64,000 nt of DNA from Parelaphostrongylus tenuis (taxonomy: Eukaryota; Nematoda; Chromadorea; Rhabditida; Metastrongylidae). Made by a program: the position numbers and the translations under genes. Where the stretch lies: contig JAHQIW010006014.1 in NCBI GenBank assembly GCA_019055375.1, positions 1 through 64,000 of the forward strand, given 5' to 3'. This document shows positions 1 to 47,175 of this stretch, one piece after another. The first letter of the stretch is position 1, and each line of letters opens with the position of its first letter. The notes below the pieces were generated by a model that saw only the letters and a list, made by a program, of their open reading frames with translations, was not told the origin of the DNA and searched no databases.

Positions 1-54
1 ATTTTCGCCCACTTGGGCCTAATGTTAGTTGCTGTTCTTTCTTTGGGTGCAATA

Positions 55-2280: not shown

Positions 2281-2386
2281 AAACCAAAAGGTCGACGGAA
2301 TTTCGACAGCACTGTTATCATATGAAAATCGAAAAAACTTAGCTTGATTAGCTGACGCGAGGTTAGTAAATTAGTCGTACAAGTTC

Positions 2387-2421: not shown

Positions 2422-2519
2422 TGGGCGTATGTAGTATTAGTCTATTTGAATGATTCGGATGGTCTTATTCATATGCTGCCTAGGTCAGGCTAGAAGATCA
2501 AACGAAGAAAGGGCGCGAG

Positions 2520-3840
2520 ATCTTATGTGATGGTGACACACTCGTCCTTCCGGTTCATTTCGGGATTTTGGACGTCTATCCAAATTGCCTCAAGAGTTTG
2601 GCGCGTGGATGTTTTTGATTCCTGCGCTAGGATTGTGACAGTCACATCAAAGTCGTTGTTGTTGTGATTTTGTGCTCTATGTAAACCTAAAGGTTTCGTT
2701 TTATCTATTTTAGATTTACTATCTAGATGTTCTTTTATGCGAATGAAAAGTGGTCTACCCGTTTCGCCTATATATTCTTCCCTGCATGTTCTAGATTTTG
2801 ATAAATAAATTGTATCCGATCTCATACAATCCCCCTCTTTTCCGTTAGGACATCATCCATCATACAGTTTTTGCTGTTGCACAATCGATCATAAGTCTAT
2901 TGTGGATCAGCTGATGGTGTAGTGTGGGAGGTGGGATTCCGATAACTACCACGGAAATTTCAAGACCGCATCTTTTTAGGCACCATTTACCCGCGCTACT
3001 AATTTCGTTTGATATAAATGGCAGTTTGAGGGAAACTCTATTCAGGTGTGGAGTATTATTCTTTCGGGATTTAATTCCACTTTTTGAATATTCCCAAGTA
3101 GCAAACGTTCTGTAGCCGTTGGAAATGGCAGATTTTCGTGCCAAGTCTAATGATTCGTTCCTTTCCTCTTCTCCTGTGCACACATTTTTAGCCGTTCGAA
3201 ACATGTTTCTAATTAGAGATTTTTTCATGTGCGAAGGATGAGAGGAAAAGTGATTAACCAAAATGTTTTTGTTACTTGGTTTTCGATACCATTTTGTGCT
3301 ATAGCCACTATCCAAAAGCTTTACTTGGATGTTTGAGAATGGAAGCCAACTCCCGTTTGGACTTTCTCGCGTAAATTTTATATGCTCTAACTGTCCGTTC
3401 AAGATTTCATTTGTCCATTTCCTCTTGTGTGGAACAGACAATGAAACAATCGCCTATATGCCGGCAGTAGAGCAATGGACGGTGAATGAGAACTGGAGCT
3501 TCCACCTTGTACATAAAAGCGATGGCAAGACCAGGTGCTAAACGTTGACCCATGTCCAACCCCCTGAGTTGTGTGAAGTATTTTTCCGACCACCGAAAGA
3601 TCGAACAACTATGACATTGTTTTAGGAGGGTCAATAGTTGTTGAATTGTGAAGCCATATAAATTTACTTTTTGTTCATTTTCAGTTAAAAGATCGAAAAT
3701 GGCTTGCATTGCGGAGTCATTTGATACATTTGTATAGAGTGAGCTAACATCAAATGACTCCATTACGTTCGAGTTGTTTGGTTTCGCGCAGCATAGGTGA
3801 TCTAGAAACATTTGGGTATTGGGTAGTAGCACTGTTATCG
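2520..3840 (-). pseudogene. Penelope-like element ORF: RT finger/palm to GIY-YIG, broken
   Basis: Read on minus: 3832-3407 encodes the RT core from the PNTQMFLDHL region through MESFDVSSLYTNVSN to the catalytic box. 3441-2860 continues with the WLPF, KWYRKPSNKN and HHQLIHNRL segments. 2825-2523 encodes GIY-YIG (EYIGETGRPLFIRIKEHL). Two lesions are visible: a frameshift near 3410-3440, and the catalytic box reads YCRHIGDCF instead of the usual YIDD. The 5' part of the RT is missing. The copy is dead and is mirrored exactly at 4648-5967. Confidence 0.9.
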
Positions 3841-4073
3841 TTTCGACTAATCAGAATGCATGCTAATGCCCGTCGTAGTTGGATGAGGAAGCGTTACTTG
3901 AACAGCAAATTATAATGCGTCCTAAGTGTGCTCTAGTTTATAAAGCTCCTGATATTTAATCGGACGATTGACGGTTGAAACATAATCGTTGGCATTCCTT
4001 TTGGAAAAGCGGATTACAGCCCGAGATGAATAAACAGAAATAGGGACTGTGGTCTGGTAAGGGCTCTTGTACA

Positions 4074-4116
4074 GCCCGATACACGTGTTTCGCCCTCATA
4101 CATTCATCAGCCAATC
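4074..4116 (-). ncRNA. Decayed hammerhead, family A, at palindrome inner edge
   Basis: Minus strand shows CTGATGA, GAA, ACACGTGT stem III, A at the cleavage position and TCGGGC. Stem II (ATGTATGAGGGC) no longer pairs and stem I is weak. The inner end of the left arm falls inside this motif. Part of it is mirrored on plus at about 4384-4412, without the CTGATGA box. Confidence 0.6.
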
Positions 4117-4390: not shown

Positions 4391-4647
4391 AGGGCGAAAC
4401 ATGTGTATCGGGCTGTACAAGAGCCTTTGCCAGACCACAGTCCCTATTTCTGTTTATTCATCTCGGGCTGTAATCCGCTTTTCCAAAAGGAATGCCAACG
4501 ATTATGTTTCAACCGTCAATCGTCCGATTAAATATCAGGAGCTTTATAAACTAGAGCACACTTAGGACGCATTATAATTTGCTGTTCAAGTAACGCTTCC
4601 TCATCCAACTACGACGGGCATTAGCATGCATTCTGATTAGTCGAAAC

Positions 4648-5967: not shown

Positions 5968-6065
5968 CTCGCGCCCTTTCTTCGTTTGATCTTCTAGCCT
6001 GACCTAGGCAGCATATGAATAAGACCATCCGAATCATTCAAATAGACTAATACTACATACGCCCA

Positions 6066-6100
6066 GGCCCTGAAGAAAGCGGGTCGCCGAAACGTCAGCC
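6066..6100 (+). ncRNA. Hammerhead ribozyme, family P, mirror of 2387-2421
   Basis: GGCC, CTGAAGA, stem II, GAA, ACGT, C, AGCC downstream of the plus-strand PLE. Identical to the left-arm copy, with the same stem I mismatch. Confidence 0.66.
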
Positions 6101-6206
6101 GAACTTGTACGACTAATTTACTAACCTCGCGTCAGCTAATCAAGCTAAGTTTTTTCGATTTTCATATGATAACAGTGCTGTCGAAATTCCGTCGACCTTT
6201 TGGTTT

Positions 6207-7357: not shown

Positions 7358-7847
7358 ACACATTTGAAAGCGGTCTCAAACATGTACTCTTGTTTTCGAA
7401 ATGGTGATCGTGCGCTTTGATGGCCAACGAATAACAATTAACTAGAGAGATACACACATGTTTCTAGAATGAAGTCTAGGGCCAGCATGAACCGCTGCTC
7501 ATCTGATTATTATTAGTTCATTAAGCTTCTTAGTGTTGAAACTAGCTTGAACGATAATGAACTGTTTTTTTTTGTATACAAGAAAGTGTAAGCTTTCGAT
7601 TGCCATGGTTCAAACGCCTTTCATTCAACTTTCTTAGAAGCAGCTGGTGGTGGCCCAGCTAAACTAAACTTTGATGTAACAACTCGAATGACCAACTTTC
7701 TTGAAACCGCGGCATGTTCTTAATATAAAGCTTTGAAAATGAAAAAAAAAAGCTCAGCACACTAATCTTTATTCAAAACTTCACGAGGTTGGTATCTTTT
7801 TCCAATCGATTGTTCTTCTTTCCGGTCGATGGGTTTTCGCGATTGCT

Positions 7848-12479: not shown

Positions 12480-13500
12480 GGTTCGCGCTCTCTATTAGAA
12501 TTGGGTCTGAGCTTTTCCCCATCCCAACCCATTTCTAACGAATTTTTTTTGCAGGGTTGCATGTAACCTACGATAAACTCCGTAAAAAGGCCAGGGCTAA
12601 AGAAATTAATAGGAATAAACAAGTGAAGACTTCACCAATGCCATCATTTCCTCAGTCGTTCTACAGGCAACAAGACTCCAACGAGGAAGTTGATAGAAAA
12701 TTCCGGAAATTTGCGGACGAAACTTTCAAAACTCTCATGTACTATCGCGCGAAAGGGTTCCATTCAAACCTCACACAACTATAAAAGTGTAGAATGAAAG
12801 AGGTTCGAGAAGTGGTAAGACAAAAGAAACATAAGACTATTTGTTAGTGATAAGGGTGGAGAATTTGTAGTGATTCCACGCAGTTAGATATTGAAATAAT
12901 GAAAAGCATCTAGACGAAGCTTTGCTTTACTGGCCATCTTCTATGAAGAAATTACAAAAGGGAGCACAGCAATGAGTGGCTCAATATGGCAAAAGCGGCA
13001 GTTTCAAGGCAATCTATAATTTCTTGACCCGACTTATACTTACTTATAACTTGGCATAACTTAGCATCCACTGATAATCTAACGTTTAACTATCCATCTA
13101 TATTCAAAGTTAGACCCATTATCGAATGTTTAGGAGGACCGACGGAGATGACAGCATGGATTTCTAACTTTTATGACATCCCAGTTGCAAGGACACATTC
13201 CAGCACATCTAAGGGACACTCAGATCTTCTTGAACCGTCTACGTAACGGAAATCCAAGCGACACGTACGTATTGGAGTCAGTGGACGTCACCGCCCTCTA
13301 TACCAACGTGTCGAATGTCTCTGCATTGTAAGCTACACACGAATTTTTTCATAGAGCATTACAAAGCTGTAAACATGCATGGCTTGCCGATTCAGCAGTT
13401 CATGGTTTTATTAAGGAAGTGCCTGAACTGCTCAATGTACATATGGTCCGGGAAGTACTTTGCGCAACTGAGAGTTGGCAATGGGGCAGTAAGTGGCACA
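12480..13500 (+). mobile_element. Penelope-like element, 5'/RT part, interrupted by a LINE
   Basis: Contains the PLE N-terminal signature around 12830-12900 (SDKGGEFVVIP in one frame), a KVRPIIECLGGPTE segment near 13110-13150, then VLESVDVTALYTNVSN near 13270-13320 and YIWSGKYFAQLR near 13440-13470. The frame from 12557 to 12784 (75 aa, basic) precedes these and may be the start of the PLE protein; a TTTTTTTTGCAG acceptor-like site lies just before it. Stops and frameshifts separate the pieces. The sequence changes to LINE at about 13505. Confidence 0.75.
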
Positions 13501-13504
13501 TCCA

Positions 13505-14681
13505 CCACGATCACAAGACTCATTGAAGTTTCGCTAGAGAGTACAAACAACCACTCTGTCTCACTTTTATCGATCTGAAGAAAGCCTTCGATTCAGTTGA
13601 AACAGAAGCGGTTATAGAGGCTCTGGATAACCAGGGCGTCCCTACTCGGTACATAATGATCCTTCGTGAGCTTTATAAAGATTTCACGACCAGAATATCT
13701 CCATTCTACAACAATATCACTATTGACGTAAGAAAAGGGGTTCGACAAGGCGATACAATATCGCCAAAACTATTCACTGCCACCCTACAAAACGTCATGC
13801 GAACATTAGAATGGGCCGAAATGGGAATGAAAATTGACGGTCGACAATCAGACCATCTTCGCTTTGCTGACGATATCGTTCTCATAACACCAAACATCAG
13901 CCAAGCGGAACGAATGTTGACCTATTTCGATAACGCCTGTGGAAAGATTGGTCTTCAACTGAATCTAACGAAAACAATGTTCATGAGGAACGGATGGTTT
14001 CGAATGCCCCATTCACGCTCAACGGAACGACAATTTTCGAATGCTCCAGTTACATCTATCTAGGTCGTGAAATCAACATGATGAACGACCTAGCCCCAGA
14101 GTTGAGCAGGAGGAAACGAGCGGCTTGGGGAACGTTTAAGAGCATCGAAGATGTAGTGAAGAGGACAAAGAACATCCGACTCCGTGCCCACCTTTTCAAC
14201 TCGACAATTATCCCTGCCCTAACGTATGCAGCAGAAACCTGGTCGCTACGTAAGCAGGATGAAAGATCACTTGCCGTTATCGAACGCGCAGTCGAAAGGT
14301 CGATGCTAGGAGTATCTCGTATTTCACAAATGAGACAAAGGATCCGAACTTCCGACCTACGTCAACGATCGAAAATCAGAGACGCCGTTCTACACGCCAG
14401 GATATCGAAAATAGGGTGGGCTGGACACGTGATGCGCTTCAACGACAACCGATAGACGAGAGCCGTTACCGACTGGATTCCTCCGGGACGTCAAGCGCTC
14501 TAAAGGAAGACCACTGACCGGTTGGTCCGATTTCTTCACGAAAGCGATGGAAGAAAGATATAATGCTCAGCGAATCCCTAGAGCGAGGGGAACCCACTGG
14601 GCTACTCTTGCACGCGATAAGGAAAAATGGAAGAGTTGCTGGTACCCGCTCGAGTCACTTGACGATCAACGGGACGACAGG
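13505..14681 (+). mobile_element. RTE-type non-LTR retrotransposon (LINE), 5'-truncated
   Basis: It begins inside the RT domain (LTFIDLKKAFDSVETEA, frame-shifted), continues with GVRQGDTISPKLF and the catalytic box LRFADDIVLITPN in the frame 13656-14063, then AETWSLRKQDERSLAVIERA and GWAGHVMR in 13994-14455. It ends with the RARGTHWATLARDKEKWK tail typical of this family. It splits a PLE whose GIY-YIG part resumes at about 14682, so the LINE inserted after the PLE. The frame is broken near 14000 and after 14455. Confidence 0.85.
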
Positions 14682-15345
14682 TGATACAGATACTCTATGG
14701 CATCAGTTGATCTGCAACCGCTTATGTGACCGTCTCTGCACAACGAAAAATTCCAAAATATGCCCCAACGGCAGAGAAGGTGACTGTACGAGCGCAGGGA
14801 CACTTTACCTAATCTCTTGTAAAGCGTGTGGCGACAAATATATTGGCGAGAAGGGTAGGCCGCTCTATGCTCGCATGGAAGATCATCTAACTGACAAGCG
14901 TCATGTCAGACGAAATCCTCCCTCATAGGGACACATAGAACACAGAGGCCTGACGGAGTAGATTTTGACATCGAAGTCATCATCCTTGCGCATTAACATA
15001 AAACATCAGTGCGAAAGATTCCGGCAGTACTTCGGATTAACACGAACAATCCAACCATGAACCGCAGGGAGGACCGCCTCGTTTTCACTCGTGATATGAG
15101 TCAGTATGAAAGACTGCCGTTTTGATGCATCATGTTTACTACGAGCCTATGTAATCTATCTTCGGTGATTTCCACTCGAATTATTCAGGGGAACACACAT
15201 AAAAAGGCGGCGAGTATGTTGAAAGTTGATTTTGTGCTTCACGCGACTGAATTCTACGTGTGCCGATTTCTTCTAAAGAAGTAATGGAGGTGTTTGACTA
15301 GGCAAACTGCCGAAACCTCAGCTGTTCAATAAGGAATGCTATAGC
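14682..15345 (+). mobile_element. Penelope-like element 3' part, downstream of the LINE insertion
   Basis: Encodes HQLICNRLCDRL, ICPNGREGDC, LISCKACGDKYIGEKGRPLYARMEDHL, then a frameshift near 14930 and a degraded remainder. The expected 3' hammerhead is reduced to GCCGAAACCTCAGC near 15308-15326; the CTGAAGA box is deleted. Confidence 0.8.
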
Positions 15346-19938: not shown

Positions 19939-20599
19939 GATGCCTCACGTCTGAGCCCATTCTTTATAGGAGGGGAGCCACCAGATGTGAAGAAACGGAC
20001 GGCGTACATCTTACACTGCCGCGTATAAAGTGATATTTCACTTCAAACAATTGTTTTGCTTCAGACATGAACCCACAAAAAACCTCATGAAGGCACAAAA
20101 ATAGACTGTTCGTGTACATGTGAAAACAGATCTCCTGTTTTTGTTTCAACGAACACAGCGTTGTAAGCCATTCAATCCACAAACCGTCATACAGCGAAAC
20201 TCAGAGATTAACCCTTTGGTTTCATTTTGATATTCGGAGGTAGCATGCGACTCGGTCGACGAAACGACGGGCTGTTCTCCAATGGAAAATCGGCAGTTTA
20301 CTATTGAGCCTTTTCTGTGGTATTTCATTCATTCATGAAGATGAAGGAATCGGGAGGGGAGGAAGGGCGGAGTGAAGAGGCGACACGAGATGCGCGTCAA
20401 TTCAAATTCGCTCTAACGCGTAGCGGCGACCGGTTTATCAGGGATAATACACGTGGAAGCCAAATGGTTGATAGTGATGGCCATTGTTGTAGATAACCGA
20501 GACTATTCCACGTTTAATCGAGTAAAAGTGTGATCGCCTATATTAACTGCCGTCTCGTTGACGGACAAGATTTCGAGCAAGCATCAGTAAACCTTCCAA

Positions 20600-20665
20600 T
20601 TTTTCCTATCGCGTGAAAGAGTAGCCCACCAAATCCTCCTCGCTCTCGAATTCGCTGAGTATAAT
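20600..20665 (-). mobile_element. RTE LINE 3' tail fragment
   Basis: Minus strand encodes RARRIWWATLSRDRK, matching the ARGTHWATLARDKEK tail of the LINE at 13505-14681. The same fragment is at about 41915-41980 in the second duplication copy, so it inserted before the duplication. Confidence 0.65.
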
Positions 20666-20786
20666 ACCTTTATTCTAGGTTTTTCGTGAAGAAATCGGAC
20701 CTTCGCATCAGTAGCCTTAGTGCAGTGCTTGTCTTTCCAAGGAATATAGGCGGTAGCGGCTTTCGTCTAACGGTTGTCATTAAGAC

Positions 20787-20826
20787 GCATTACGTGTTTC
20801 GTCCTATGGGGGCTTATCAGTAGCAC
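20787..20826 (-). ncRNA. Decayed hammerhead, family B
   Basis: Minus strand: GTGCTA, CTGATAA (core G changed to A), a stem II region GCCCCCATAGGAC, GAA, then ACACGTAATGCGT. The 3' half of stem I is not recognisable. Confidence 0.5.
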
Positions 20827-20961
20827 CCTCCCTCGATTCAGCCAATCCCCTGACGACTTCAAGTTATTCCATCATATGACTCGGGGAGGTTTTTTTTACT
20901 CGGCGACAATTTCTATGAAGAAAAATATTTGGTCTCAGGGAATCAGTTGAACCAAGGAAGG

Positions 20962-21009
20962 GTGCTGCTGATAAGTCCCAATAGGACGAAATAGGCGCCT
21001 ATATAGCAA
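20962..21009 (+). ncRNA. Hammerhead, family B, one core change
   Basis: GTGCTG, CTGATAA, stem II GTCC-CAATA-GGAC, GAA, stem III ATAGGCGCCTAT (a perfect palindrome), A at the cleavage site, TAGCAA. All three helices form. The single visible defect is A for the invariant G8 of the core, which is expected to prevent cleavage. The stem II sequence is close to that of the schistosome satellite hammerhead. Confidence 0.75.
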
Positions 21010-21245
21010 CAGACCTAACGGCTCAAAGCATGTTACATCCTTATCAGATTATATTGTTTAGAGCGGGTCTATAAAAGAATGTCGATAGAAGAAGTATGAT
21101 TCATTGTAAAACCGCATGTTCGACTACCGGTCACCAAAACATCAGGTAACTCCATCATCTGACTTAAGGTTAAATTTTTAAACTCGACGTCGATTTCTTC
21201 GGAGAGGAGTGTCTATCCTCATGGGATCGCCTTAACCGAGGAAGG

Positions 21246-21293
21246 GTGCTACTGATGAGTCCCAATAGGACGAAATAGGCGCATACATAGCAC
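21246..21293 (+). ncRNA. Hammerhead, family B, near-intact
   Basis: GTGCTA, CTGATGA (complete core), stem II GTCC-CAATA-GGAC, GAA, stem III ATAGGCGCATAC, A, TAGCAC. Stem I is a perfect 6-bp helix. The defect is in stem III, where the pair closing the core is A-C rather than A-U and the palindrome is weakened. Weak or no activity is expected. Confidence 0.75.
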
Positions 21294-22336
21294 TAGACCT
21301 AACTGCTTAGCACATGTTACATCCTTATCAGAATATTTCCGACAAAAAATCAATCTGTCCCTCACCAACATCGTTTTCGTTAGACTTGACCTGAGAACAA
21401 TAGTTACACAGTCGCAGCAGAAATCGATTGATCTTCTTGCTGCCTGGCCTATGCTTCGTGCTATGAGAACATTGTCATCACCAAGCGAAAATCGTGTAAT
21501 TGTCGGCCTTCGATTTCCACTTCCTTCTTATCCTGTCCTGATATTCGAATGACATTTTGAAGAGCGACATGAAGCAATTATGGCGACTTTGTATCACTCT
21601 GTCAAACTTTTCTTTTTTATTTTTATCAAAATTTTCTTCTTTTCTCTTTTTTATGCAAAAGTTTTGTTTGAGAAGAGTTCTGACATTTTCTAAATAGCAA
21701 CGCTTTTCACCAGTTTTCTTTTTCTTCCATTTTTGTCGAAGACTATCAGAATATTGAAACACTCCTGAAACATCCCAAATGCTTATGCTGTATAGCGAAT
21801 TACATTAAAGAGCTACACCGCCTCGAAGATTGCTCACAGCTTAAAGGGACTTTTGCTCGGGCAGGATATGACATTTAGGAAGTCGATTTACAGGTTAGTT
21901 TTGTTGATCAAGAAAATCTCGTTCAGGATTTCACTGTTTAATTTGAGGTGACTTCTGAAAACCCGGGTCCATCGACTTCCCCTTCAAACACTGAGAGGAA
22001 GTAAAATTTTGAAACATCTCTTGTGATAACTCATTTCGATGTTGGAGCATCTTCCGGATTTCTAATAGTGTTTTTGAAATTTGATTTATGTATGTGAATT
22101 GGTATTCGTTCAGCGCCGATGATGGCGAGCCTTGCTCGTCGACCGAAGGTATCGATTAAACGAAACGGCTGAAATGAGTGATCATAGGGTGCGAAGCTTT
22201 CGAATTTTTGATTTCTTTACTTTGAATAATTCTTTAATGTCTAGTTGCAATACCACTAAAATCTTCTTCACACATATTTTTGATCGTCACACAATATGCT
22301 CAAGCCTACTGTGAGGTCTGGTTTGACAGTTATACA

Positions 22337-22382
22337 GTACTAGACAGCTGCTGTTTCGCCCTTCCGTGCTCCTTAGTAGCAG
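22337..22382 (-). ncRNA. Decayed hammerhead, family B
   Basis: Minus strand: CTGCTA, CTAAGGA (core damaged), stem II GCACGGAAGGGC, GAA, stem III ACAGCAGCTGT, cleavage C, TAGTAC. Helices are mostly kept, the catalytic box is lost. Confidence 0.58.
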
Positions 22383-22630
22383 GGTACCTTTTGGTTCAGC
22401 CGATCCCATAGGGATATACCACTGCATATGAAGGACCTGACGCGAAGAGAAAATCACTGAAAGTCAAGTTGAAAAACTCTATGATTCACTCTACTGGCCA
22501 CGAGTGCTCGATGTGGTCATAGCAATGTCGAGGAATTTCGTCACCTGACTTGCGAAATTCGTTATTTGGCGTCGCTTCCTTTATATTTGAGGGCATACCC
22601 TCGAAGGGATCGGCAGAACCGAAAAGCATC

Positions 22631-22675
22631 GTGCCACTGAGGAATCTGAAAAAGCGAGGGAGAATTGTGTAGTAC
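22631..22675 (+). ncRNA. Decayed hammerhead, family B
   Basis: GTGCCA, CTGAGGA, a weak stem II, GAG instead of GAA, a degraded stem III, TAGTAC. Recognisable mainly by comparison with 43788-43833. Confidence 0.5.
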
Positions 22676-23187
22676 TGTGTAGGTGCCGTACCAGAACTCA
22701 CAATAGGCTCAAACAAAAATGATTTTATTTAACCACCACTTGTGGTGTTATGAATTTGCAATATACCAAATAGCGCAGAGTGGTGTGCAAAAACGTTTGC
22801 GTCAGCCGGGATTCGAACCCAAATCTCACTCCTTCCTGGAGCGCATGACGATCCCGCCAGACCGTAGACGGTTGGCTGTTGAGAGATAACGCATTGTAGC
22901 GTAGAAAAAGTGCTGTGCAAAACGAGCGTCGGTGGGGCAACGGCTAGCATACGCGACGGAAACTATGAGATCTTGGTTCGAATCGCGGCTGACGCAAACG
23001 TTTTTGCATAGCACTCTACAGTATTATGCTCGAACATGTTATATGATTATCGGTTATCGTCGTTTTCAAACGAGGTCTATACAAACAGCAAAAGTGGTGT
23101 ATAATTACATAGTTTTATGATTATCTTATGAGTCGTACACTGGTTTACCACAAGTCATATGATGGAACGCAATAGTGAAAGATGGAG

Positions 23188-27866: not shown

Positions 27867-30417
27867 ACAAAATATTCTGCATGTATATAATTTGTGAATA
27901 ACTAGTGTTCTTATCGCATCTTCAGGCAAAAAAAAAAGAATTTGCATATATTTACTTTGGTACTTTCCGGCTATAAGATAACAAGTGATTATTCGACCTC
28001 ATTCACTGTACAAAGATTTCTCATAGGAGTTTTGATAACCACTCAAAAGACCTGAATCTCTGGTTAGATCTGTACGTGGCCCATTTTTTGAAACACCCTA
28101 TGCAATGCTGTAGAATCCAAAACAAAAATTATTTTTACATCAACTACACGCCTCCATTTTTATCACGCGTATAATTCGCTGAATGTACGAAAAGCATTTG
28201 AACGTGTAGAGAAAATCTCGTAGTATGTTAGTGAGTCGTTTTATATGGAGTTTCTTTTGAAGGAGAGAAAAAATTCTTAATTGAATACAAGTTGCGCCCC
28301 ACAAGTCAAACCCGTCAGGGCATCGATCGGTCGCCCCGCCCGTAGGTTAGCCGGCAAGCAAGCTGACAACTATTTAGAACATATTCCTATTTTTCCTGCT
28401 ACAATGTAGTAAAGATCTTCCCAGAAAATAAACACAACGCTGGAATCATTCAAACTTACGCCATCGAATGAATAGTAATAGTCTAAAGAAAGAGCTATGC
28501 ATCGCGAGGTGTGAAAACATATTTTTTTTCCTCCTATGGCGCTATAAAAAGAGCTTTTCTAATCAGCAAATACATTTTTGAGTTCTTCGAGAATTTTGCT
28601 ACTGCAAGAGTACAAGCGCTCTAAGGATAGTTATACAACAAAATATAAGAGAGATTAAAAAAACGCGTGGCCGTGTGAACATGGTTTTAACTTGAATTTC
28701 CCCACCTTTTTAGAAAGGTGTTTTTGAATAACTGAGTATCAACGGCTCTAGCCAAGGATTCAAGCTTTTGATTGATTATTAACACAGCTGCGAAAAATTG
28801 TTGTGCAGCGTATGCGCAAGGGGGCTAAAAAGGAAAAGCTTTGCTTTCGGTGTATATTGTTGTCTGAACTTCACGGCGATTTTGTTTAGAGTTATATAGT
28901 AATATCTGGATTCTAAGAAGAAATTCTCATTACGAAAAGATAGATACTGTAGTGAAAAGGTCGAAAAGCGTATTTTAAGCTAAAAGTGCCGTTTGAATTC
29001 TGCGAGTATGAACACAGCTCCCAATGACTACAGAGGAAATCATTGTTTTGCGACTAGGATTATTCCATGGTGGCCAGATCTGCAGTTTGTGTGATAACAC
29101 TAGCTAAGTACGGATCTAATATTATCTACATGATAGTCGATGGAGTAACTCAATGAAAACTGCTTAAAGAAAGTGTCATGATTTTTTGTCAATTCTAAAA
29201 CTCACGTTCTAAAACGTCAACTCATGGGCGCCACGTTAATTCTACTGCTACCAATTACTATATGCATCAGCTGTCGGCAAAAAAACTAGTACGTGTCTGG
29301 AAACACTGAGACATTTTTGATTTTTTGGCGTTTACTATTTTTTTAGTTCTGTTAACGGTATGGAACCATAAGTCAAAATTTTATAGGAAACGCCAAATTT
29401 AATCCGTGATGAATGTGATTTTAGATTTGAATCCTCATGCTTCAGCAAAATCAACTGCCCAAAACAGCGGCTGAGCCATCACCAAAGCCTGGCGTCGCAA
29501 TCATGTTGGTGATACCAAGCCTCTTAAGTACCTTACTACACGGCATCTTACATCTTCATTGGCTCAACGTGAGTGTCAACCTTTCCTCTCAATATTCTTA
29601 TAGCAAATAAAAGACTTACCTTTTAGCACAGATAGATGCGTGGCACTGCGGCAGAGTGGTTATGATGCTCGTTGTGATGCGCGTAGAGCGAGCCTCACCC
29701 CTCGATTCTCTCCGACAGTCAACAAAAGCGCTGTATGGAGCCCCACAGGCAAGCTGTTATCAAGATTGCAACGAAACTCGCTAAACCATTTTCTCCGCCG
29801 ATCAGGAAGAAGACGGAAAACGAATTGAGTGCTCGAAGTACTGGGATCCGCACAGAGAAAACTGTGATGACGTATAAAATAAAGTGTTAAGGTGCTATGG
29901 ACATACATTCAACTTTATCAAACATGAAAAGAAATGACTGAATGCCTCATGCAATGCCTACTGTATGCAATAGCTTGTGACGGTCTCTCTCCTCTTGATT
30001 TAAGAATGTCTCTTACGATCACATTGTGAAGAGAAGTGAATAGACGAATTTTTAGTCGCTGCGTAGGTGAACGATCACTTTTGCTGCATGAACCAGTTCA
30101 ATTGCCTTTTCTTTCTTTTTTACTGCTTACATCTAAAATCCATTCTTGAAAAATCCCATTCTATTTTGCGAATCTCAGCGCATCTCTTGATTGATTTGCT
30201 AATTCTCATCCATCATCCACAAATTTATAGTTTTGGAGTTTTATCTGACTCTTGAAAAATTCTCAAGACTGGCCATCGATTAATAGCGATATTCATCAGA
30301 TAAGTCAGTATTTTCTTAATAAGCAGCCCTGAGGTTTTTGAGATGATTGATTCATTCAACATTTACAACGCCTCGCCAGTTACGTCTTACTAAGAGCTTA
30401 TTTTTCTCTTTAAAGTC

Positions 30418-30508
30418 AACTTCTCATGTGGTCTGGTCAGGGATCTTGTACATCGCGATACACGTGTTTCGACCTTACAGTCTCGTCAGTCGGGAAGAAA
30501 TCCCGTCA
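30418..30508 (-). mobile_element. Family A short insertion (solo hammerhead)
   Basis: A roughly 90-bp stretch interrupts sequence that is continuous in the paralogous segment around 47031. It consists of the family A hammerhead (30453-30495, minus) with flanks GTGGTCTGGTCAGG on one side and AGAAATCCCGTC on the other. The paralogous site gives an approximate empty site. Confidence 0.7.
30453..30495 (-). ncRNA. Hammerhead ribozyme, family A
   Basis: Minus strand: TCCCGA, CTGACGA, stem II GACT-GTAA-GGTC, GAA, stem III ACACGTGT, A, TCGCGA. All core positions are kept (the fourth core base, C here, is tolerant). Stem I has one C-C mismatch at its fourth pair. Confidence 0.78.
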
Positions 30509-30772
30509 AAAGAGATTTGAATTGGACGCAATAATATACTTTCGACTCGCAGTTCACCTAAGCATCCTGATTTCGGCCTAAGTTATATGGAACTCAGAGG
30601 CTGAAATTCGTGTAGTCGCCATCACTTTTTGAAGTTCAGGGTAACTTGACTGGTATAACTTAGTAGATTTCACTTGTCATAGAGTGTAGAACGTTTGTCT
30701 TCGATGATTCTCTATAAGGAGTGTAAGGCTCGAGAGAACTGACTATAAAAAGATCGAAAGACGACGGGTTCT

Positions 30773-30815
30773 GCCCGGCTGACGAGTCTGTAAGGACGAA
30801 ACACGTGTATCGGGA
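30773..30815 (+). ncRNA. Hammerhead ribozyme, family A, unit 1
   Basis: GCCCGG, CTGACGA, stem II GTCT-GTAA-GGAC, GAA, ACACGTGT, A, TCGGGA. Core complete. Stem I pairs five of six, including a G-U next to the core; stem II four pairs with one U-G. Confidence 0.82.
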
Positions 30816-31090
30816 TGTACAAGATCCCTGACCAGACCACATGACAAATTGGCTCAAATAATAATGAAACGATCTCTTGAAATTTGAGCGTGGTCCAAAA
30901 GCACTCGAAATAAAGGTATAATTATGACGAAAGTGCCAGCCAAAGAGCAATCGTGTGCGCAACACTCTGTGTTAGGTGGTAATTTCACATGACATAGAGT
31001 GTAAAACGTTCGTCTTTGATGACTCTTTATAAGCAGTGTAAAGCTCCCGAGAGAACTGACTATAAAAAGATCGAAAGACGGACGTGTTCT

Positions 31091-31133
31091 GCCCGGCTGA
31101 CGAATCTGTAATTACGAAACACGTGTATCGGGC
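31091..31133 (+). ncRNA. Hammerhead ribozyme, family A, unit 2, stem II weakened
   Basis: GCCCGG, CTGACGA, then ATCTGTAATTAC where GTCTGTAAGGAC is expected, GAA, ACACGTGT, A, TCGGGC. Core bases and stem I are kept, but stem II no longer pairs well, so activity is likely reduced or lost. Confidence 0.75.
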
Positions 31134-31555
31134 TGTACAAGAGCCCTTACCAGACCACATAACAAGTTGGCTCAAATAGTAATGAAAAATAATAAAAATG
31201 AATCTATTAAAGTGGTAGACTGCTTGTAGCAGAAAATTTCATAAGTACATTGCAGCACTATGAAATAGTGGATGAAGTTGATGGTATCGCACGGTCAAAC
31301 ACTTTCACATTCCTGGCCACAAAACATATAAATAAATTTGTCCACGCAGTAAAGAGCTTCTTTTTTGAGAAAACTCGGCAATTTGTTGCTTTTGCTTCCT
31401 ATTATTTATCGGAGATAAGCCGCGTAAAACGTTCAAGAGGTAGGAATGTGCCTGGCTCATGTCAGAAAGAGTATAAGAATGTAAAGATAGAAAGAGTGCG
31501 AAATTACACCTGTTTATGTAAAAAGTATGCTTGCTTTCACTTGTTGATTTTATAC

Positions 31556-35626: not shown

Positions 35627-36204
35627 CAGTCATATTCATGTACTTGAGTCACAACGTCTTTTTCGCATTCGTTGTTTCCTCAAAGATTTCACAGTTTTTT
35701 AAAAGAGTTTTAGTTCTTCAAAAAATTGCTTAGGATAGCAAATCTGTTTGTTAACGGTTTACCGTTATCACTAGCAGAAGTGAGATTTCTCAAATAGCGA
35801 TGTAGTGACGTTTTCACGCAGTGAGAAGCATTTTCCTTATTTGGACATTTTTAACAATTTTTTTGTTCTCACTGTTTAACATCCAGAGCCGCGCATTATC
35901 ATATCGGTCCAAAGCTTCACAGCGTCCAGCGGAAAATCTCAAATGATGAAAACATCGAGTTTGCATTTGATGAAAGAAAAACTTCTGGTTTGCATTGCCA
36001 AAAATGGAGCGTAATGTATTCTGATTGTGTTAATTTTTCTCCTAAAACTTCAAGTTTCCGTGGCGCAAAGTTTTGTTCCCACTAAGCACAGAGTGAGACT
36101 ATTCATGCGGCTGCTTCGCCATCACATCAGCAGCTTCTGTCAACACATCGCCTTCTAAGTCAGCACAATCTGTTTCACAGTCGACCCGCTCGTTTTTACT
36201 ATTA

Positions 36205-36611
36205 TTAAAACTATACCCTTATCTCAAGTGCTTTGTTTAGACCTTACCAGACCACATGACATGTTGGCTCAAATAATGATGAAAGGATATATTGAAATTT
36301 GAGCGTGGTCTAAACAAAGCACTCGAGATAAAGGTATAATTATGATGAAAGTACCAGCCAATGAGCAATCGAGTGCACAACACTCTGTGTTAGGTGAATG
36401 TTTTACTTGACATAGAGTGTAAAGCGTACGTCGTCGATAACTATATATAAGGAGTGTGACGCTCCCGAGAGAACTGACTATAAAAAGATCGACAGACGAC
36501 GGGTTCTGCCCGGCTGATGAGTCTGTAAGGACGAAACACGTGTCTCGGGCTGTAGAAGAGCCCTTACCAGACCACATGACATGTTGGCTCAAATAATGAT
36601 GAAAGGATATT
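36205..36611 (+). mobile_element. Family A element with 49-bp direct terminal copies and an intact hammerhead
   Basis: A 49-bp block beginning CCTTACCAGACCACATGACA occurs at 36242-36290 and, without change, at 36562-36610, 320 bp apart. Between them lies one full family A unit with the hammerhead 36508-36550. At the left, 36206-36238 is an inverted copy of about 36311-36343 (ACAAAGCACTCGAGATAAAG). The exact match of the two blocks suggests recent formation or insertion. It abuts an RTE relic at 36612. Confidence 0.8.
36508..36550 (+). ncRNA. Hammerhead ribozyme, family A, intact with GUC site
   Basis: GCCCGG, CTGATGA, stem II GTCT-GTAA-GGAC, GAA, stem III ACACGTGT, C, TCGGGC. The cleavage triplet is GUC, the optimal one. 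The core is the classical CUGAUGA/GAA. Stem I forms six pairs including one G-U. Together with 35527-35569 and the two family C copies it is among the best candidates for an active ribozyme here. Confidence 0.9.
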
Positions 36612-37760
36612 ATTAAAATAATCCAGTTTCTTTCAAACTTGGTCGGTATGTCTTCTCGTATTGCGCGGATCCTCCAATCGCTCCTTTTTTCGCGCGATTG
36701 TTGTCCATGGTTGCTTAATTCGAGCATGACGGCCAGCTTCAGTTTCATACTGTGATAAACATCGGCCACTGCTAGTACGTTGACTAATTCTTCTTGCGAG
36801 CATGACCGCTCAGCGTGTAGGTGGTCGTCCACGGGGGTTGGTGTATTCTCGTGGGATCCACTCTACAAATCGCTTTATCCATGTGTCGTCTGATATCCTA
36901 ACTATATAAACGACTTATCTGCACTTCGCCATCGGTGTATGTTCTTCTGAATCGCAAAGATGCGATAGGTTGCGGTGATCTGAGCTGCGCACAGCGGTTA
37001 CAGGTTGTGAATGCCGACTGAATCTTCAAAACGCATCGTTCAAGCGCTTCTTTGAGTTCCTCGCAGTAGTCTTGACGTGGTCGAAGAACCAGCTCACATC
37101 TCTGCAGTATAGCAGAGTCCCTAGAGAACTGCTGAATCGAAAAGGTAGCGCGCAGTTTTTGGTCCGTCATTTTGCTGATGACTTCTTTGAGAGGCTGAAA
37201 TGCGACCCACGCTGTTTCCATTTTCTATAAATCTCCTCCTTCTACCCATGCTCAATGAACACTCAAGGTACAAGTACGAGGTGGTCTCAGTAATCTGAGA
37301 ACTATCCCTGCAAATTGTTCATTATTGCACTCTTGGTTATTCATAATCTGAGTCTTTATAAAATTCACGTGTAGCTTGATCTTCCTTTTCGCTTCGTTAA
37401 GTTCCTTGAGCATCGTCTCTGCTTTTCAAGAATAAGGCGTTTTCATCCATGCAACGAAGGGTTGATGGAATTTTCCAATAAAATGCTAGCTATTTTCATT
37501 CCAATTGAGCGGCTTCATTATCTACTGCAGTGGAGCGGTGGGCAGATTTGACGATATCGTATCACCTAGTCGAACTCTTTTCTAATGAGGGTGGTAAGAA
37601 GTCGACGAAAAAGCTATATTTTCGTAGTACAGTCCCGGTGAAGCCCAATAGAGTTCTTGATAATGGATGGGTCGGGTTTACTCCTTGATCGGAGCACTGA
37701 TGATGCTGCGCTTGCTCTGACCTTATCAATTGCTTTTTACTGATTAACATGGACTAGATT
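36612..37760 (-). mobile_element. RTE LINE relic (RT C-terminal half)
   Basis: Minus strand: frame 37221-36898 has AWVAFQPLKEVISKMTDQKL and ELKEALERCVLK, matching the region downstream of the RT catalytic core in RTE elements. Further down, 36890-36620 encodes DDTWIKRFVEWIPREY, PRGRPPTR and a decayed tail. The part above 37240 is more degraded. Stops and frameshifts throughout. It belongs to a different RTE lineage from the LINE at 13505. Confidence 0.75.
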
Positions 37761-41195: not shown

Positions 41196-42111
41196 GGTGC
41201 CTCACGTCTGCGCTAATCTTTTGTGAGAGAGAACCCCACATATAAACGAATGGGCGACATACATGTTACATTGTCTTATGTAAAGTGAAATGACATTTGC
41301 ACGCGTTGTCATGCACTGTATAAGTGTCCATAATAAACCTCATAAGGACTCAAAAGTAGATTGTCAGATTATACATGGAAAAACAGATTTTCTGTTTTGC
41401 TTCAATAAACCGATGTTTTATTAGTGAAGCCTTTTCCATTCGTCGAAAAAACGTTATAAACAATTCATTTCATAAACTGTCAGGCTGCGAAACTCAGAGT
41501 TTTACCCTTTGTCCTCCATGTTCGTATCAGGGTGCAGCATGCGACGTGGTTGCCGACAGGGTGGAGCGCGCTCCAGTGAACTTCAAGTTTGACGGTTTAC
41601 CAATAAGCCTTTTCTGTGGCATTCTATTCAGTCATAATGGTGAAGGAAGAAGGGAGTGAAGGGTAGAGGGAGGGAGGGCGGGGTAAAGGAGCGAGGCGAG
41701 ACGCGCGCCAATTTAAATACTTTCAAGCGTGTCGCGGCGATCTATGTGTCATAGATGATACACGTGGAAGCCGAAGTCTTGATAGGTGAAAGCCGTCGTG
41801 GTAGAAAATCAGGATTATTTCACATTCAATCGGCCAGAAAAGTTTGATCGTCTACATTACCTGTTGTCTCGTTGGTAGACAAGAATTTGAACATCAGCAA
41901 AATTTCCATTTCTTTCCTATCACGTGAAAGAGTAGCCCAGTAAGTCCTTTTCGCTCTAAAATTCGTGGAGTATAATATCTTTCTTCTAGGTTTTTAGTGA
42001 AGGAATCGGACCTTCGAGAGCCTCGTACTGCGGTGTTCGACATCTCAAGAAAAGCCTATTTCGTAGCGGCTTTCGCCTAGCGGTTGTCATTAAGGCGCAT
42101 TACATGTCCGC

Positions 42112-42325
42112 CCTATCTCACCATCAATAGCCTAGCGTGTAGAACGGCACCATTGACTTGCGATCGCTGGCGTAGATCGTAATGCCAGATGCCTTCTCGT
42201 ATTTTGGCGATATGACATACTCCTCGTATCGACCTTTCGACTGCGGAAAGTAATCTCTCATCGTGCTTACGTAGCGAACAGGTTTCCGATGCATACGAAA
42301 ACAGTAATAACAGCTGGCTCACAAA
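42112..42325 (-). mobile_element. RTE LINE fragment
   Basis: Minus strand frame 42322-42113 encodes YASETCSLRKHDERLLSAVE, then ICHI-like and DLRQRSQ, AVLHARL segments, closely matching 14230-14410 of the LINE at 13505. It lies inside the spot where copy 1 has its family B element (20800), so it deleted or replaced part of that element in copy 2. Confidence 0.78.
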
Positions 42326-43491
42326 GGTTAACGTGGATCCCGGTAAATTTTTATCTCTCTGTCACATTCTTGACAATCTTCAACTCTCCCAAGCCGCTCG
42401 ACTCCCCTGCTCAACTCTCTGAAGCTAGGTCGTTTATTTTACTGACTTTTCGACTCAGATTGACGCAACTGCAGCATATGGAGATTGTTATTCCGTGAAG
42501 CAAAATCGATCTTTTCATCATTAACATCGTTTTTGTTTAATTTGGCTGGGATACAATAGTTCCACAAACGGTGTCGAAATCGAATCATCTTTGTACCGCC
42601 TGAATTGTGCTCGGTGTTATAAGAACGTTGTCATCATGAAGCGAAAATAGTGTAATTGTCGGCTGTCGATTTTCACTTCCTTGTTATACTATCCTCATAT
42701 TAGAATAACATTTTGGAGGACGACAGGAAGCCGACTTGGTATCAATCTGTTGAACTTTTCTTTCACGCAGTAGCTTTCTTTGAGAAGATTTCTGACATTT
42801 TTTCGAATTGCCTCGCTTTTCACTAGTCCTCATTTTCTTCCATTTTTGTCCAAGAATATCATAATTCTCAAGCACTTCTTAAACATCCCAAAGCCTTTTT
42901 CAAAGGAAACTAATGAAGCTCATCTTGTACAGCGGATTACTTTAGGGAGCTACACTGCCTCGAGAACTGCCCACAGTTCCAAAGGAATTTTGATTGAGCA
43001 GAAAACGGCTTCTGGCCGACACTGAGGAAATCGATGTGCATGTTAGTTTTACTTATCAAGAAAATCTCGTTCGAGACGTTACTGTTCAATTAGAGGTGAC
43101 TTCTGAGGATCCAGGTCCATCACTTCGCGATTGGACACTGAGAGGAAGTAGGATTTTTATGTATCTCTTGTGGTAACTCAGTTTGGTACTGAGGTATTTT
43201 TCCGGGTTTCTAATAGTGATTTTGCAATTTGATATATACATGTTAATTGGTACTTGTTAAGCGTCGCTGAGGTCGAGGGGGCAAGCCATGTTCAGCGACC
43301 AAAGGGGTCGATCAAGGCGAAGCCTCTGAAACGAGTGACCGAAGGGTACGAAGCTTTCGAATTCTTGATTTATCAACTTTTGACAGTTCTTCAACGTCTA
43401 ATTGCAATGCCGCAAGAATTTTCTTTCACATATTTTTGGTAATCAGACAACATCTTTAAACCTACTATGTGTTCTATTGCACACCTATACA

Positions 43492-43537
43492 GTAGTGGGC
43501 AGCTGCTGTTTAGCCCTTCCAGGTTCTTCAGCAGCAT
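43492..43537 (-). ncRNA. Decayed hammerhead, family B
   Basis: Minus strand: ATGCTG, CTGAAGA, stem II ACCT-GGAA-GGGC, TAA for GAA, stem III ACAGCAGCTGC, C, CACTAC. Loss of the G of GAA should inactivate it. Confidence 0.58.
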
Positions 43538-43787
43538 GGTACCTTTCGGTTCAGTTGATACCTTAGGCATATATCTAATGGAGTTGATACCGAAGAGTAA
43601 ATCACCACAAATCGGTTGAAAAGATTTGGCATTCTAGGATTCACTCTATTAGCCACGAGCGCTTGACTGTGGTCACTGCAATGTCGAGGAATTTTTGTCA
43701 GGTGACTTGAGTGATTTGTTATCCCGCGTCGATTCCTTTATATGTAGGTGTATATCCCCAAAGGGATTGGCAGAACCGAAGGGCACC

Positions 43788-43833
43788 GTGCTACTGGAGA
43801 GCCTGAAAGAGCGAAACAGTAGCTATGTAATAC
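43788..43833 (+). ncRNA. Decayed hammerhead, family B
   Basis: GTGCTA, CTGGAGA (core A changed), stem II GCCTGAAAGAGC, GAA, ACAGTAGCTAT, then G at the cleavage position where A, C or U is required, TAATAC. Confidence 0.58.
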
Positions 43834-44024
43834 TGTGTAGGTGCCATACCAGACCTCACAACAGGCTAAAATATGTTATGTAATTGTCGGTTATCGTCGT
43901 TTTTGAGCGAAGTCTCTATAAAGAGTCGAAAGTAGAGAAATAATTCATTTAATTTTTTGACTGCCTCTCGAGTAGTCTGTTTACAGTAGTCTACTACACA
44001 GTCATATGATGGTATGCAATAGTG

Positions 44025-44232: not shown

Positions 44233-46088
44233 AGCCACAAAAAAAAAATGCTTTACATCGGCCGTGCGCCTTTATTTTTATCACGTGTATAATTCGCTGA
44301 AAGCACGAGAAGCATAATATCGTATAATGGAATTCTTGTACTATGTGAGTGAATCGTTTTATATGGAGTCTCTATTGAAGGTAAAAAAAATTTGCAATTG
44401 AAAAAGAGTTGTAAACCAATTTCAAGCGCGCTATGACATCGATTGATTGCTTTGCCCGTAGGTTAGCCGGTAAGCAAGCTCCCCACTATGTAAAACTCGA
44501 TCTTATTTTTCCTGCTACATTGCTGTGGAAGATTATTCCAGAAAATATGCAAAGCGTTAGAATTATTCATACTTACGCTATCGGACTATTAGTAATACTC
44601 TAAGGAAAGAGATCTGCCCCCAAGGTGTACAAACAAATATTTTTTATAATCCTATGAAAAGAGGTTTTCTAGTAAGCAAACACATTTTTGAGTTCTTGGA
44701 GAACTGTGCTATTAAAAGAGTACCAGTACTCTAAGGATGGTAGGCGTGTTCGTGCGAAACATGAATTTTGTTTAAATTTTCCATCTTTCTCGGAAGGTGT
44801 TCAAAAAAACCGACTACATACGGCTCTAGCCAAAGTATCAAGATTTCGCTTGATTACTAACACTGCTATGAAAAATTCTTGTGCAGGGTATTCTGTACAA
44901 GGGAACTAAAAGGAAGAAGTTTTTCTTTTGGTGTAATCCGTTGTCTGAACTTCACGGCGATTCTGTTTGCAGTTATATAGTGTCGAAAAGCGTATTCTAA
45001 GCAAGAAGTGCCGCTCAAACTCTCCGAAACATGAGCGCAGCTCTCAATGACCTTTTGCAGAGGAGAGCATTTTGTTTTGTAACTAGAATTTTTTCATGGA
45101 GGCTAGACCTATAGTTCCTGTAACGACAGTAGCTAAGTCCAGATCTAATATCATCTACATGACGGTCGATAAAGAAAGATTAATGAAGACTGCCTGACGA
45201 GGATGCCATGATTTTTATCATTTTTAGAATTCACGTTCTGACTCAGACGATAGTTGCGAACTTCAGCGCTTGCCAAATCCTGGGCGTCAGCGAATTCTGC
45301 TATCGTTCATTACTGTATGCATCAGTTGTGGCAAAGAAAATATAGTACGTGTCTGAAAACACTCTTAGGCATTTTGATTTTTTGGCCTCTACCAAATTTT
45401 TGGTGCTCCTAACGGTCTAGAACCATGGAGTGAAATTTTATAGGAAATGTCAGATTTATTTCGTAATGAATGTAATTTTGTTTGAATTATTATGTTTCAG
45501 TGAAATTAACCTCCCAAACAACAGTTGAGCCATCACCAGAACGTGGAGTCGCATTCATGCTGGTGATACCGAGCCTCTCATGTATCTACTTTAAGCCAAC
45601 TTTTACGTGTTCATCGGCTCAACGTGAGTGTCAACTTTTTCTCTAATTCTTATAAGAAATAAATGACTTAACTTTAAGCATAGATATATCCGGGGCGCTA
45701 TGGGCGAGTGACTGTGATGCTCACTGCGGTGCGCGGGGAGAGAGCCCCACCGCCCAACTCTCTCCGGCAGTCAGCAGCAGATACCCTATGGAACGCGAAA
45801 GTCAAGCTATCATCGAGATTGCAAGGAAAACTCGTTCTACGAGTACTTTACGGCCGATCAAGAAGAAGACGAAAAATGAAATAGATGCTCGAAGTATTGG
45901 GAGCCGTGCAAAAAAGAATCGATCGATCTTTTGAATCGATCGAATCGAAGTCGATCTTTGATATAGTTTTGATCTAACAGCAAAAATCTATCGACTGAGA
46001 GGTGGTGATGGTACAGTGTCATAGTACACTGTGCCATCACCACATACGCCTCCCTCCTTGCTTCAATGCAGGGCTGAATGTGGGGCGG

Positions 46089-46136
46089 GGGTCACTGATG
46101 AGGAGGACGAACCTCCGAAACACCGGTGTATGACCC
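46089..46136 (+). ncRNA. Hammerhead ribozyme, family C, unit 1, intact
   Basis: GGGTCA, CTGATGA, stem II GGAGG-ACGAA-CCTCC, GAA, stem III ACACCGGTGT (perfect palindrome), A, TGACCC. Stem I is six Watson-Crick pairs, stem II five, and all core bases are classical. The cleavage triplet is GUA. Because stem III is self-complementary without a loop, cleavage in a tandem transcript is likely to proceed as a double hammerhead. Confidence 0.93.
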
Positions 46137-46358
46137 TGGGCTTACCAACCCCTTTTTTGAGCTTAAATCATTTTTTTTTTGGAATTATATTGAATGTTTT
46201 TTGGGGGTTTCAAAAACAGTCGATCTTTTGATATAGTTTTGATCTAACAGCAAAAAATCTATCGACTGAGAGGTGGTGAGTGTACAGTGTCATAGTACAC
46301 TGTGCCATCACCACATACGCCACCCTCCTTGCTTCAATGCAGGGCTGAATGTGGGGCG

Positions 46359-46406
46359 GGGTCACTGATGAGGAGGACGAACCTCCGAAACACCGGTGTA
46401 TGACCC
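46359..46406 (+). ncRNA. Hammerhead ribozyme, family C, unit 2, intact
   Basis: Same sequence as unit 1 over the whole ribozyme, exactly 270 bp downstream. Cleavage at both sites of a tandem transcript would release one 270-nt RNA with a 5'-hydroxyl and a 2',3'-cyclic phosphate, the ends needed for circularisation by RtcB-type ligases (established for retrozymes, inferred here). Confidence 0.93.
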
Positions 46407-47175
46407 TGGGCTTACCAACCCCTTTTTTGAGCTTAAATCATTCTTTTTTTGGAATTATATTGCCTGTGATAACGTATCAAATAAAGTGCTGAAGTGCTAT
46501 AACCATACATTCAACTTTATCAATCAGTCAAACATGAAAAGAGATGATTGAAGGTCCTATGGTTTTCCTGTCCCATGCAATAGCTTATGAATGTTTCTCT
46601 CTGCTTAATTTCAGAATGTCTCTTCCGACCTTATTGTGAAGAGAAGTGAATAGACGAATTTTCAGTCTCTGCGTAACTAACCGATCACTTTTGTTGCATG
46701 GATCAGCTCAATTACCTATTCATTCTGTATTTGCTGCTCACATTCAAAATCCTTTCTCGAAAAATCCGAAGTCAAATATTGAGAATTTCAGCGCATCTCT
46801 TTATTGATTTTCTATTTCTCATCCGTCACCCACAAAGCTATAGATTTGTAATTTTATCTGACACTTGAGAAATTCTCAAGACTGACTATCGAGTAATCGC
46901 GACAATCATCAATAAATCAGTGTTTTCCCAACAAGCAATTTTGTAGTTCTTAAGATTATTGATTCATTTCACATTTACAGCGCCTCGCCAGTTGCGCCAT
47001 ACTAAGAGCTTATTTTTTTCATCAAAGGCAACCTTACTAAATTGAGCGCAATGATATACATTCGGCTCGCACTTCACTCAAATGCCTGATTTCCGCTTAC
47101 ATTACATGAATGTCAGAGGCGGAAATTCGTAAAGTCGCCTTCACATGAAGTTTGGGGCGACTTGATGTATCACAT

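Follow-up and report, generated by a model that had tools for sequence, protein, structure and literature searches.

Animal non-LTR retrozymes and their RNA circles are described in PMC7229834 (Cervera and de la Pena 2020), the accessible part of which suggests Penelope-like elements (PLEs) as their movers, partly from co-occurrence. The hosts named there are cnidarians, molluscs, amphibians, rotifers, platyhelminths, annelids, crustaceans, and insects; a word search of the main text returned neither "nematod" nor head-to-head arrays. In the same part, most invertebrate retrozymes are reported as good cutters, single hammerhead ribozyme (HHR) motifs of amphibian elements as weakly active, and dimers of the latter as cutting better. 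How animal retrozymes re-enter the genome is a standing question, for which that text proposes PLEs as candidates. According to the sections of PMC11167929 available, the PLE protein cuts and extends both strands, and reverse transcription (RT) starts at two adjacent internal sites that bound a tail; its authors regard this internal two-site start as a trait of PLEs alone. In the accessible text of PMC3846280, PLEs are described in head-to-head form, flanked by 8-10-bp duplications and with or without a tail.

Here, we describe family C, a hammerhead-bearing repeat in the window (the whole 64,000-nucleotide stretch of nematode DNA analysed), and its copies across the assembly. Family C is probably a nematode non-LTR retrozyme, and from the features reported below we infer cleavage, RNA circles, and insertion of the circle by PLE machinery that primes from both DNA ends. 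No nematode retrozyme or head-to-head retrozyme was found among the matches listed for the open-licence literature searched, and priority is not established.

Family C in the window

Tandem-repeat detection in the window placed family C at 45949-46462, with a period of 270, 1.9 copies, and 97% match (GC of the unit, 44%). The copies (45949-46192 vs 46218-46462) are 97.2% identical and separated by four substitutions and short indels. An earlier note on this DNA had described two 242-bp units lying 270 bp apart; the 270 period and the two copies stand, and the 26 nt in between belong to the unit, so that the locus is 1.9 rounds of one 270-nt unit. The hairpin that it saw upstream in each unit is there, 18 bp long and with two changes in unit 2. 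The features are given below (our later consensus numbering begins one base after u1 of the window unit):

45949..46218, + strand: family C unit 1, one full 270-bp period, numbered u1-u270
46219..46462, + strand: family C unit 2, 0.9 period, ending at site S2 (u244)
45949..45996, + strand: S1 stem-loop (AGTCGAT...ATCGACT) of unit 1; at other loci, S1 ends lie ~13 nt inside it
46219..46267, + strand: S1 stem-loop of unit 2
46002..46043 (u54-u95), + strand: 18-bp hairpin of unit 1
46273..46314, + strand: 18-bp hairpin of unit 2, two bases different (coordinates from the 271-nt alignment offset)
46193..46231, + strand: tail of ~39 nt, from S2 (~u244) to S1 (~u13)
45907..45948, + strand: left-edge stretch of 42 nt outside the unit, containing GATCTTTTGA and ATCGATCGA-like repeats
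29851..29861, + strand: 11 nt at the empty paralogous site

The flanks are 77-80% identical to those of a paralogous segment, with homology ending at 29850/45906 and restarting at 29862/46464. Because this segment aligns on both sides of the insertion, its site is empty, bar the 11 nt. The paralog had been said to join the flanks directly near 29858; the site is indeed empty, and the statement has to be amended for the 11 nt there and for the 42 nt at the left edge (45907-45948), which align neither to the unit nor to the paralog. No target duplication was seen at the window copy, which is atypical in having one arm and no duplication. A 68-aa frame in family C had no match in a Pfam search (one frame), and a search of protein databases with one other single frame found no translated relative.

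Two pairs of segments in the window (28149-30420 vs 44267-47032, and 20296-22713 vs 41595-43871) form a segmental duplication of ~75-82% identity, and retroelement insertions differ between its copies.

Hammerhead ribozymes and predicted RNA folding

Each unit carries a type I HHR:

46089..46136, + strand: type I HHR 1, predicted cut between 46130 and 46131
46359..46406, + strand: type I HHR 2, predicted cut between 46400 and 46401
46131..46400, + strand: cut-to-cut 270-nt monomer, the predicted RNA circle

The two are identical, as first described, with a complete core (CUGAUGA, GAAA), a GUA triplet, a stem II of 5 bp, and a stem I of at least 6 bp; stem III is a 10-nt palindrome without a loop (ACACCGGUGU / ACACCGGTGT). 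A structural HHR descriptor gave five matches in the window, two in family C and three in family B (see below), and zero in 300 Markov-1 sequences of window length, on which ground a chance motif was rejected as the source of the HHRs. The Rfam hammerhead models had been proposed as a check. With them, family C went unreported at the gathering score and also at relaxed limits (E 5 for the window, E 10 for 601 bases). Family B is recognised by these models, with one of its sites scoring over the gathering threshold and the other two under it. A ribozyme family with 1,005 or more copies can thus escape the Rfam models.

By itself, the HHR region does not fold with unusual stability (z -1.5). In the energy model, a single HHR favours a non-hammerhead fold (-16.4 vs -14.0 kcal/mol for the hammerhead), and a pair of HHRs reaches -48.3 kcal/mol by cofolding into a double hammerhead, compared with 2 x -16.4. 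The double-hammerhead cofold and the misfold of the lone HHR together predict that multimers cut and that the monomer circle stays inactive. The circular 270-nt monomer folds at -81.1 kcal/mol (z -3.1 vs 200 shuffles), with the same fraction of paired bases as the shuffles. The HHR is intact in 195 of 204 family C copies, a count that is partly selective; its lower substitution count was left out of the evidence because the units had been excised by HHR matching.

Family C across the genome

The assembly searched comprises 481,506,261 bases (481 Mb) in 5,105 contigs. An exact 36-nt HHR core occurs in it 1,005 times (549 + 456), and the reversed core, used as control, 0 times; viral contigs scanned for the core gave no match. 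The whole-unit search found at least 266 matches in the best 40 of 767 candidate regions. The genome search that the earlier note had suggested thus finds far more than the two copies of a lone tandem dimer (40 arrays were mapped), and family C as a two-copy curiosity was rejected.

Between loci, the best-scoring arrays differ by a mean of ~1.0 substitution per 270-nt unit (140 cut-to-cut units); since these loci were picked by similarity, the true divergence of the family exceeds this value. With this low divergence among similarity-chosen loci and the 1,005 cores, insertion appears recent, as had been proposed, and repeated. Units of an array are 98-99% alike, and an older array beside one locus (L043) stands at 92%. 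Arms measure about 0.2-16.7 units and are non-integer and widely variable in length. The biggest array seen (L059, on contig C1459) has 14.1 + 16.7 units, with variants at u9 and u92 that are spread over both arms and absent from the other units compared.

Array orientation and target duplications

We read the anatomy of 40 arrays (39 genomic loci and the window copy). Thirty of them are head to head, with a minus array on the left and a plus array on the right; the other 10 have a single orientation (6 minus only and 4 plus only, including the window), and no tail-to-tail array was detected at the 40 mapped loci. Edges and arrangement of L066 were set by hand. Two neighbouring pieces were counted as separate insertions, namely an older plus array that lies ~630 bp to the left of L043 and, ~1.1 kb to the right of L054, a 79% fragment. 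Among the exact-core places listed first (~100 of 1,005), close two-orientation clusters were, by eye, minus then plus in 13 of 13 cases, one of which (C21) also belongs to the first locus set. The close two-orientation pairs that we noticed by eye among the matches listed for families A, B, and the PLE protein were likewise minus then plus, and plus-then-minus places on one contig were noticed among the matches listed only many kilobases apart (e.g., C3580, C4390).

Exact direct repeats of at least 12 bp were identified at the array edges of 20 of the 39 family C loci, or 19 of 38 without L062, which was dropped from the pair counts because its flanks are those of L041 (one event); L059, at a contig edge, was dropped from the duplication test. 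A 12-bp duplication is lacking at 19 of the 39 first-set loci. In the control of mismatched left and right edge pairs, 0 of 185 reach 12 bp and one reaches 11. A second set was taken from the listed exact cores, so that whole-unit similarity played no part in its choice (two-orientation clusters L078-L081 and single-hit places L082-L085), and all 8 of these further loci have duplications of 12-14 bp. Three of its single-hit places (L082, L083, L085) prove head to head and L084 single-armed; the right arm of L082, read by eye, agrees but lies outside the 27 end-tested loci. L039, L070, L073, and L084 are single-arm loci, three of them (L039, L070, and L084) with a duplication; in L073, a 16-bp edge match falls within its A-run. 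Eight of the 30 head-to-head loci are without a duplication of at least 10 bp (L042, L057, L059, L061, L064, L066, L075, and L076).

Outer ends and microhomology

Ends can be read within a few bases where the duplication is at least 10 bp long, and the end test comprised 27 head-to-head loci, all independent, of which 21 belong to the first set and 6 to the second. Exactly one outer end lies at S1 (u11-28; 99-116 nt past the HHR cut) in 27 of 27 loci, with p ~7e-9 if ends were drawn independently, a value that assumes independent insertions. The opposite end lies at S2 (u228-246; ~57 nt past the HHR cut) in 21 loci and at u114, 172, 180, 193, 212, and 219 in the remaining 6. Where head-to-head loci lack a clear duplication, we used alignment edges: L042, L061, L075, and L076 fit the one-S1 rule and L066 does so loosely, L057 and L064 have no S1 end and break it, and the ends of L059 are unreadable.

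S1 and S2 are both distinct from the HHR cut site. As the preferred ends do not lie at the cut, priming would be internal, as on a circle or multimer. We also found microhomology between the duplication and the unit at both kinds of end, with mean runs of 2.1 and 1.9 vs 0.6 and 0.45 after shuffling; 0 of 2000 shuffles reached the observed level (19 loci; L060, L062, and L068 excluded), and the longest-match definition of the duplication somewhat inflates the microhomology.

Several other origins bear on these ends. Inverted arrays between duplications of near-constant length would be expected of a foldback-type DNA transposon whose inverted ends are the tandem repeats. Its probability appears close to nil, given that there is no fixed terminal sequence, that the two ends of one insertion differ (S1 vs S2 or upstream) and scatter in position by several bases, that single-arm insertions occur with a duplication (L039, L070, L084), and that the units carry HHRs. 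Ordinary satellite DNA, arising by unequal crossing-over or from excised DNA circles with the HHR incidental, would account for tandem arrays with units 98-99% similar; it is highly improbable in view of the many dispersed short arrays, the 12-bp duplications, the preferred ends, and an inversion that is head-to-head only. Both origins were rejected on end heterogeneity.

Instead of two primed ends, the inverted arms might also reflect a single cDNA that primed itself or folded back, a mechanism put forward for Adineta PLEs. Self-priming has already been invoked for head-to-head PLEs (PMC3846280, in its accessible text), and some family C junctions fall within the near-palindrome u203-227. However, the arms are unequal (1.0 vs 10.3 units in L041) and the outer ends differ within a locus, neither of which would be expected of a copied-back arm, and microhomology is present at both outer ends. 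We consider fold-back of one cDNA unlikely and favour priming from two ends.

Families A and B

Family B is present in the window in the following places:

36211..36607, + strand: family B insertion with head-to-head arms and an 11-bp duplication (36200-36210 / 36608-36618)
30663..31187, + strand: family B plus array, HHRs at 30773 and 31091, 318-nt unit
30387-30507, - strand: family B minus arm beside the plus array
4074..4116, - strand: family B hammerhead in degenerate form, lying upstream of the PLE frames

At 4048-4387, family B units lie upstream of a PLE frame. The outer ends of the insertion at 36211-36607 are ~111 and 60-63 nt past the HHR cut. Six family B loci were read (four selected as two-orientation and two from the window), and in five of these the ends lie 63-76 and 102-112 nt past the cut. 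Their duplications are 11, 10, 8, and 7 bp, with two loci not convincing, and those of 7-8 bp fall inside the range of the mismatched-pair control of family C.

Family A (20797-21336) consists of 284-bp HHR repeats, arranged head to head, whose palindromic stem III is as long as 12 nt (ATAGGCGCCTAT, and in other places ACAGGCGCCTGT). At least 100 matches were identified genome-wide in the best 40 of 2,499 candidates, and eight loci taken from the Rfam search carry family A-type HHRs. The window also contains a second RT region (13152-14925), for which R2 and LINE-1 proteins are among the best PDB matches; a nearby frame weakly matches GIY-YIG.

Resident Penelope-like elements and the shared S1 stem-loop

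Pieces of a PLE reading frame were detected in the window:

2526..3850, - strand: PLE reading-frame pieces, left arm of an inverted repeat (RVT_1 27.1 bits, cut-off 29.6; GIY-YIG 20.7, cut-off 22.6)
4637-5961, + strand: mirror copy of these pieces, other arm of the inverted repeat

Each of these scores is slightly under its cut-off. With the window GIY-YIG piece as query against the whole assembly, the best 150 of 15,298 candidates were scored as matches, with open frames of up to 902 aa; the 902-aa frame (on contig C884) scores 46.9 bits for RVT_1 (cut-off 29.6) and 26.2 bits for GIY-YIG (cut-off 22.6). The full PLE protein has matches of ~47-58% over ~97% of its length in Necator, Ancylostoma, and Haemonchus, and the window RT fragment has its best matches in Necator, Angiostrongylus, Ancylostoma, and Haemonchus. 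By these nearest proteins, the host is most likely a strongylid nematode, in line with the nematode setting of the earlier note.

The inverted repeat spans 54-8434 (99.9% over 4-kb arms) and contains two PLE copies, head to head on either side of a family B unit; each arm also carries a tRNA-Arg(TCT). It represents an insertion scar or an assembly effect; a search of this palindrome for a target duplication gave 8 bp at most.

Five PLE loci were read, and as they had been selected as minus-plus pairs, their head-to-head form is by choice. The C884 element, worked by hand, has a 13-bp duplication, a minimal HHR, and ends 59 and 121 nt past the HHR cut. Its HHR (CTGAAGA...GAAACGTC; bases 99-125 of L091, which are 36148-36174 of C884) has a very short stem III without a loop. 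The four other pairs have arm-end duplications of 12, 12, 12, and 13 bp, in a reading without shuffled control, and also a 14-bp palindrome inside both arms. On C2590, C212, and C2213, one end lies 116-124 nt past the cut and the other 79, 15, and 66 nt past it; on C5089, read by eye, one end falls within the HHR, and the other, an S1 end, sits at the same motif following a deletion. The one-S1 rule was found in 5 of 5 PLE loci read, so that family C shares with the resident PLE both this rule and the duplication length (5/5 loci, chosen as minus-plus pairs).

Family C and the PLE have S1 stem-loops that can be aligned with each other (AGTCGA.CTTTTGA ... CAGCAA in a TCGA stem), and 0 of 5000 dinucleotide shuffles align as well; for this alignment, windows were set at the S1 sites already mapped. 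When family C was compared with the entire PLE locus without such guidance, this 21-nt match had an E of 0.70, and blastn of family C against the window PLE gave no match. A likeness between S1 of family B and S1 of the PLE was tried and failed (693 of 2000 shuffles as good); for S1 of family B vs family C, 95 of 2000 shuffles were as good.

Proposed route of integration

In the route that we propose, array transcripts would be cut by HHR pairs into 270-nt monomers, which would form circles. The PLE reverse transcriptase/GIY-YIG protein would recognise the S1 stem-loop, which by its sequence appears common to retrozyme and PLE, and would cut the target to leave 12-nt 3' overhangs, matching the 12-bp duplication observed. 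Both overhangs would prime on the RNA via a few paired bases, one at S1 and the other usually at S2; we infer this two-overhang priming from the end positions and the microhomology. Reverse transcription from each end would then run for one or more rounds of the circle, and the two cDNAs would join at their far ends, giving the observed arrangement of head-to-head arrays with non-integer copy number.

The u9 and u92 variants mixed through both arms of the biggest array argue against one circle copied repeatedly, and a linear multimeric transcript could be an alternative template. PLE-driven insertion would in that case use an uncut linear multimer of existing arrays, with circles uninvolved; the genome has arms of up to 16.7 units, and mixed variants in one locus fit the copying of existing arrays. 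Against this, most HHRs are intact (195/204, partly selective), so that a many-unit transcript should cut itself, and arm lengths are non-integer and widely variable. We regard insertion without circles as a possible but rather improbable course and retain the route through RNA circles.

A more specific proposal, to which we give about an even chance, is that retrozymes are satellites of PLEs that carry the PLE RT-start stem-loop. One PLE complex would hold a single circle, on which both 12-nt overhangs would prime, at S1 and at S2 or upstream, and two-ended rolling reverse transcription would generate head-to-head concatemers. If true, the mover of animal retrozymes would have been found, together with two-ended target-primed reverse transcription. 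Given the PLE-like insertion features, an in vitro assay that combines a single protein with a single 270-nt RNA could test the PLE-mover proposal.

Comparison with known systems

Family C appears to be a non-coding, non-autonomous retroelement, best filed as an animal non-LTR retrozyme that would integrate as a PLE does. As in plant LTR retrozymes (PMC4918200 and PMC7761336, each as far as available), the repeat appears to be non-coding, carries HHRs, and has a proposed movement via RNA circles; the plant elements have a type III HHR, an LTR, and a 4-bp duplication, whereas family C has a type I HHR and a 12-bp duplication. With the HHRs of newt and axolotl satellites or retrozymes, as given in the accessible part of PMC7229834, it has in common a stem III that is weak or palindromic and that functions, or by prediction should function, in dimeric form; unlike in those repeats of 330-350 bp, the palindrome has 10 nt and no loop at all.

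The likeness to PLEs (PMC3846280 and PMC11167929, in the parts available) includes inverted copies that lie head to head, short duplications, some ends with a tail of 30-40 bp, an internal RT start (a proposed one in family C) at two adjacent sites, and, in place of the minimal type I HHR of PLEs, an HHR of type I. In contrast to PLEs, family C is 270 nt long, forms long arrays, has no RT or endonuclease, and has a 5-bp palindrome as stem III and not the minimal PLE form. A 270-nt unit is too short for RT or GIY-YIG, and family C is therefore not itself a PLE. Its 12-bp duplication compares with 8-10 bp in Adineta PLEs (PMC3846280, accessible text). Within the same genome, the 12-bp duplication, the one-sided tail, and the head-to-head arms match the resident PLE, to which the shared RT-start stem-loop is added.

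The features in common with animal non-LTR retrozymes, as far as the accessible text of PMC7229834 describes them, are a type I HHR in each unit, tandem units 150-450 bp long in arrays from dimers up, a GC content under 50%, PLEs in the same genome, and duplications longer than 4 bp (12 bp in family C). Family C may thus extend this class to nematodes. In that text, PLEs are candidate movers of retrozymes; in family C, the insertion scars themselves point to PLEs.
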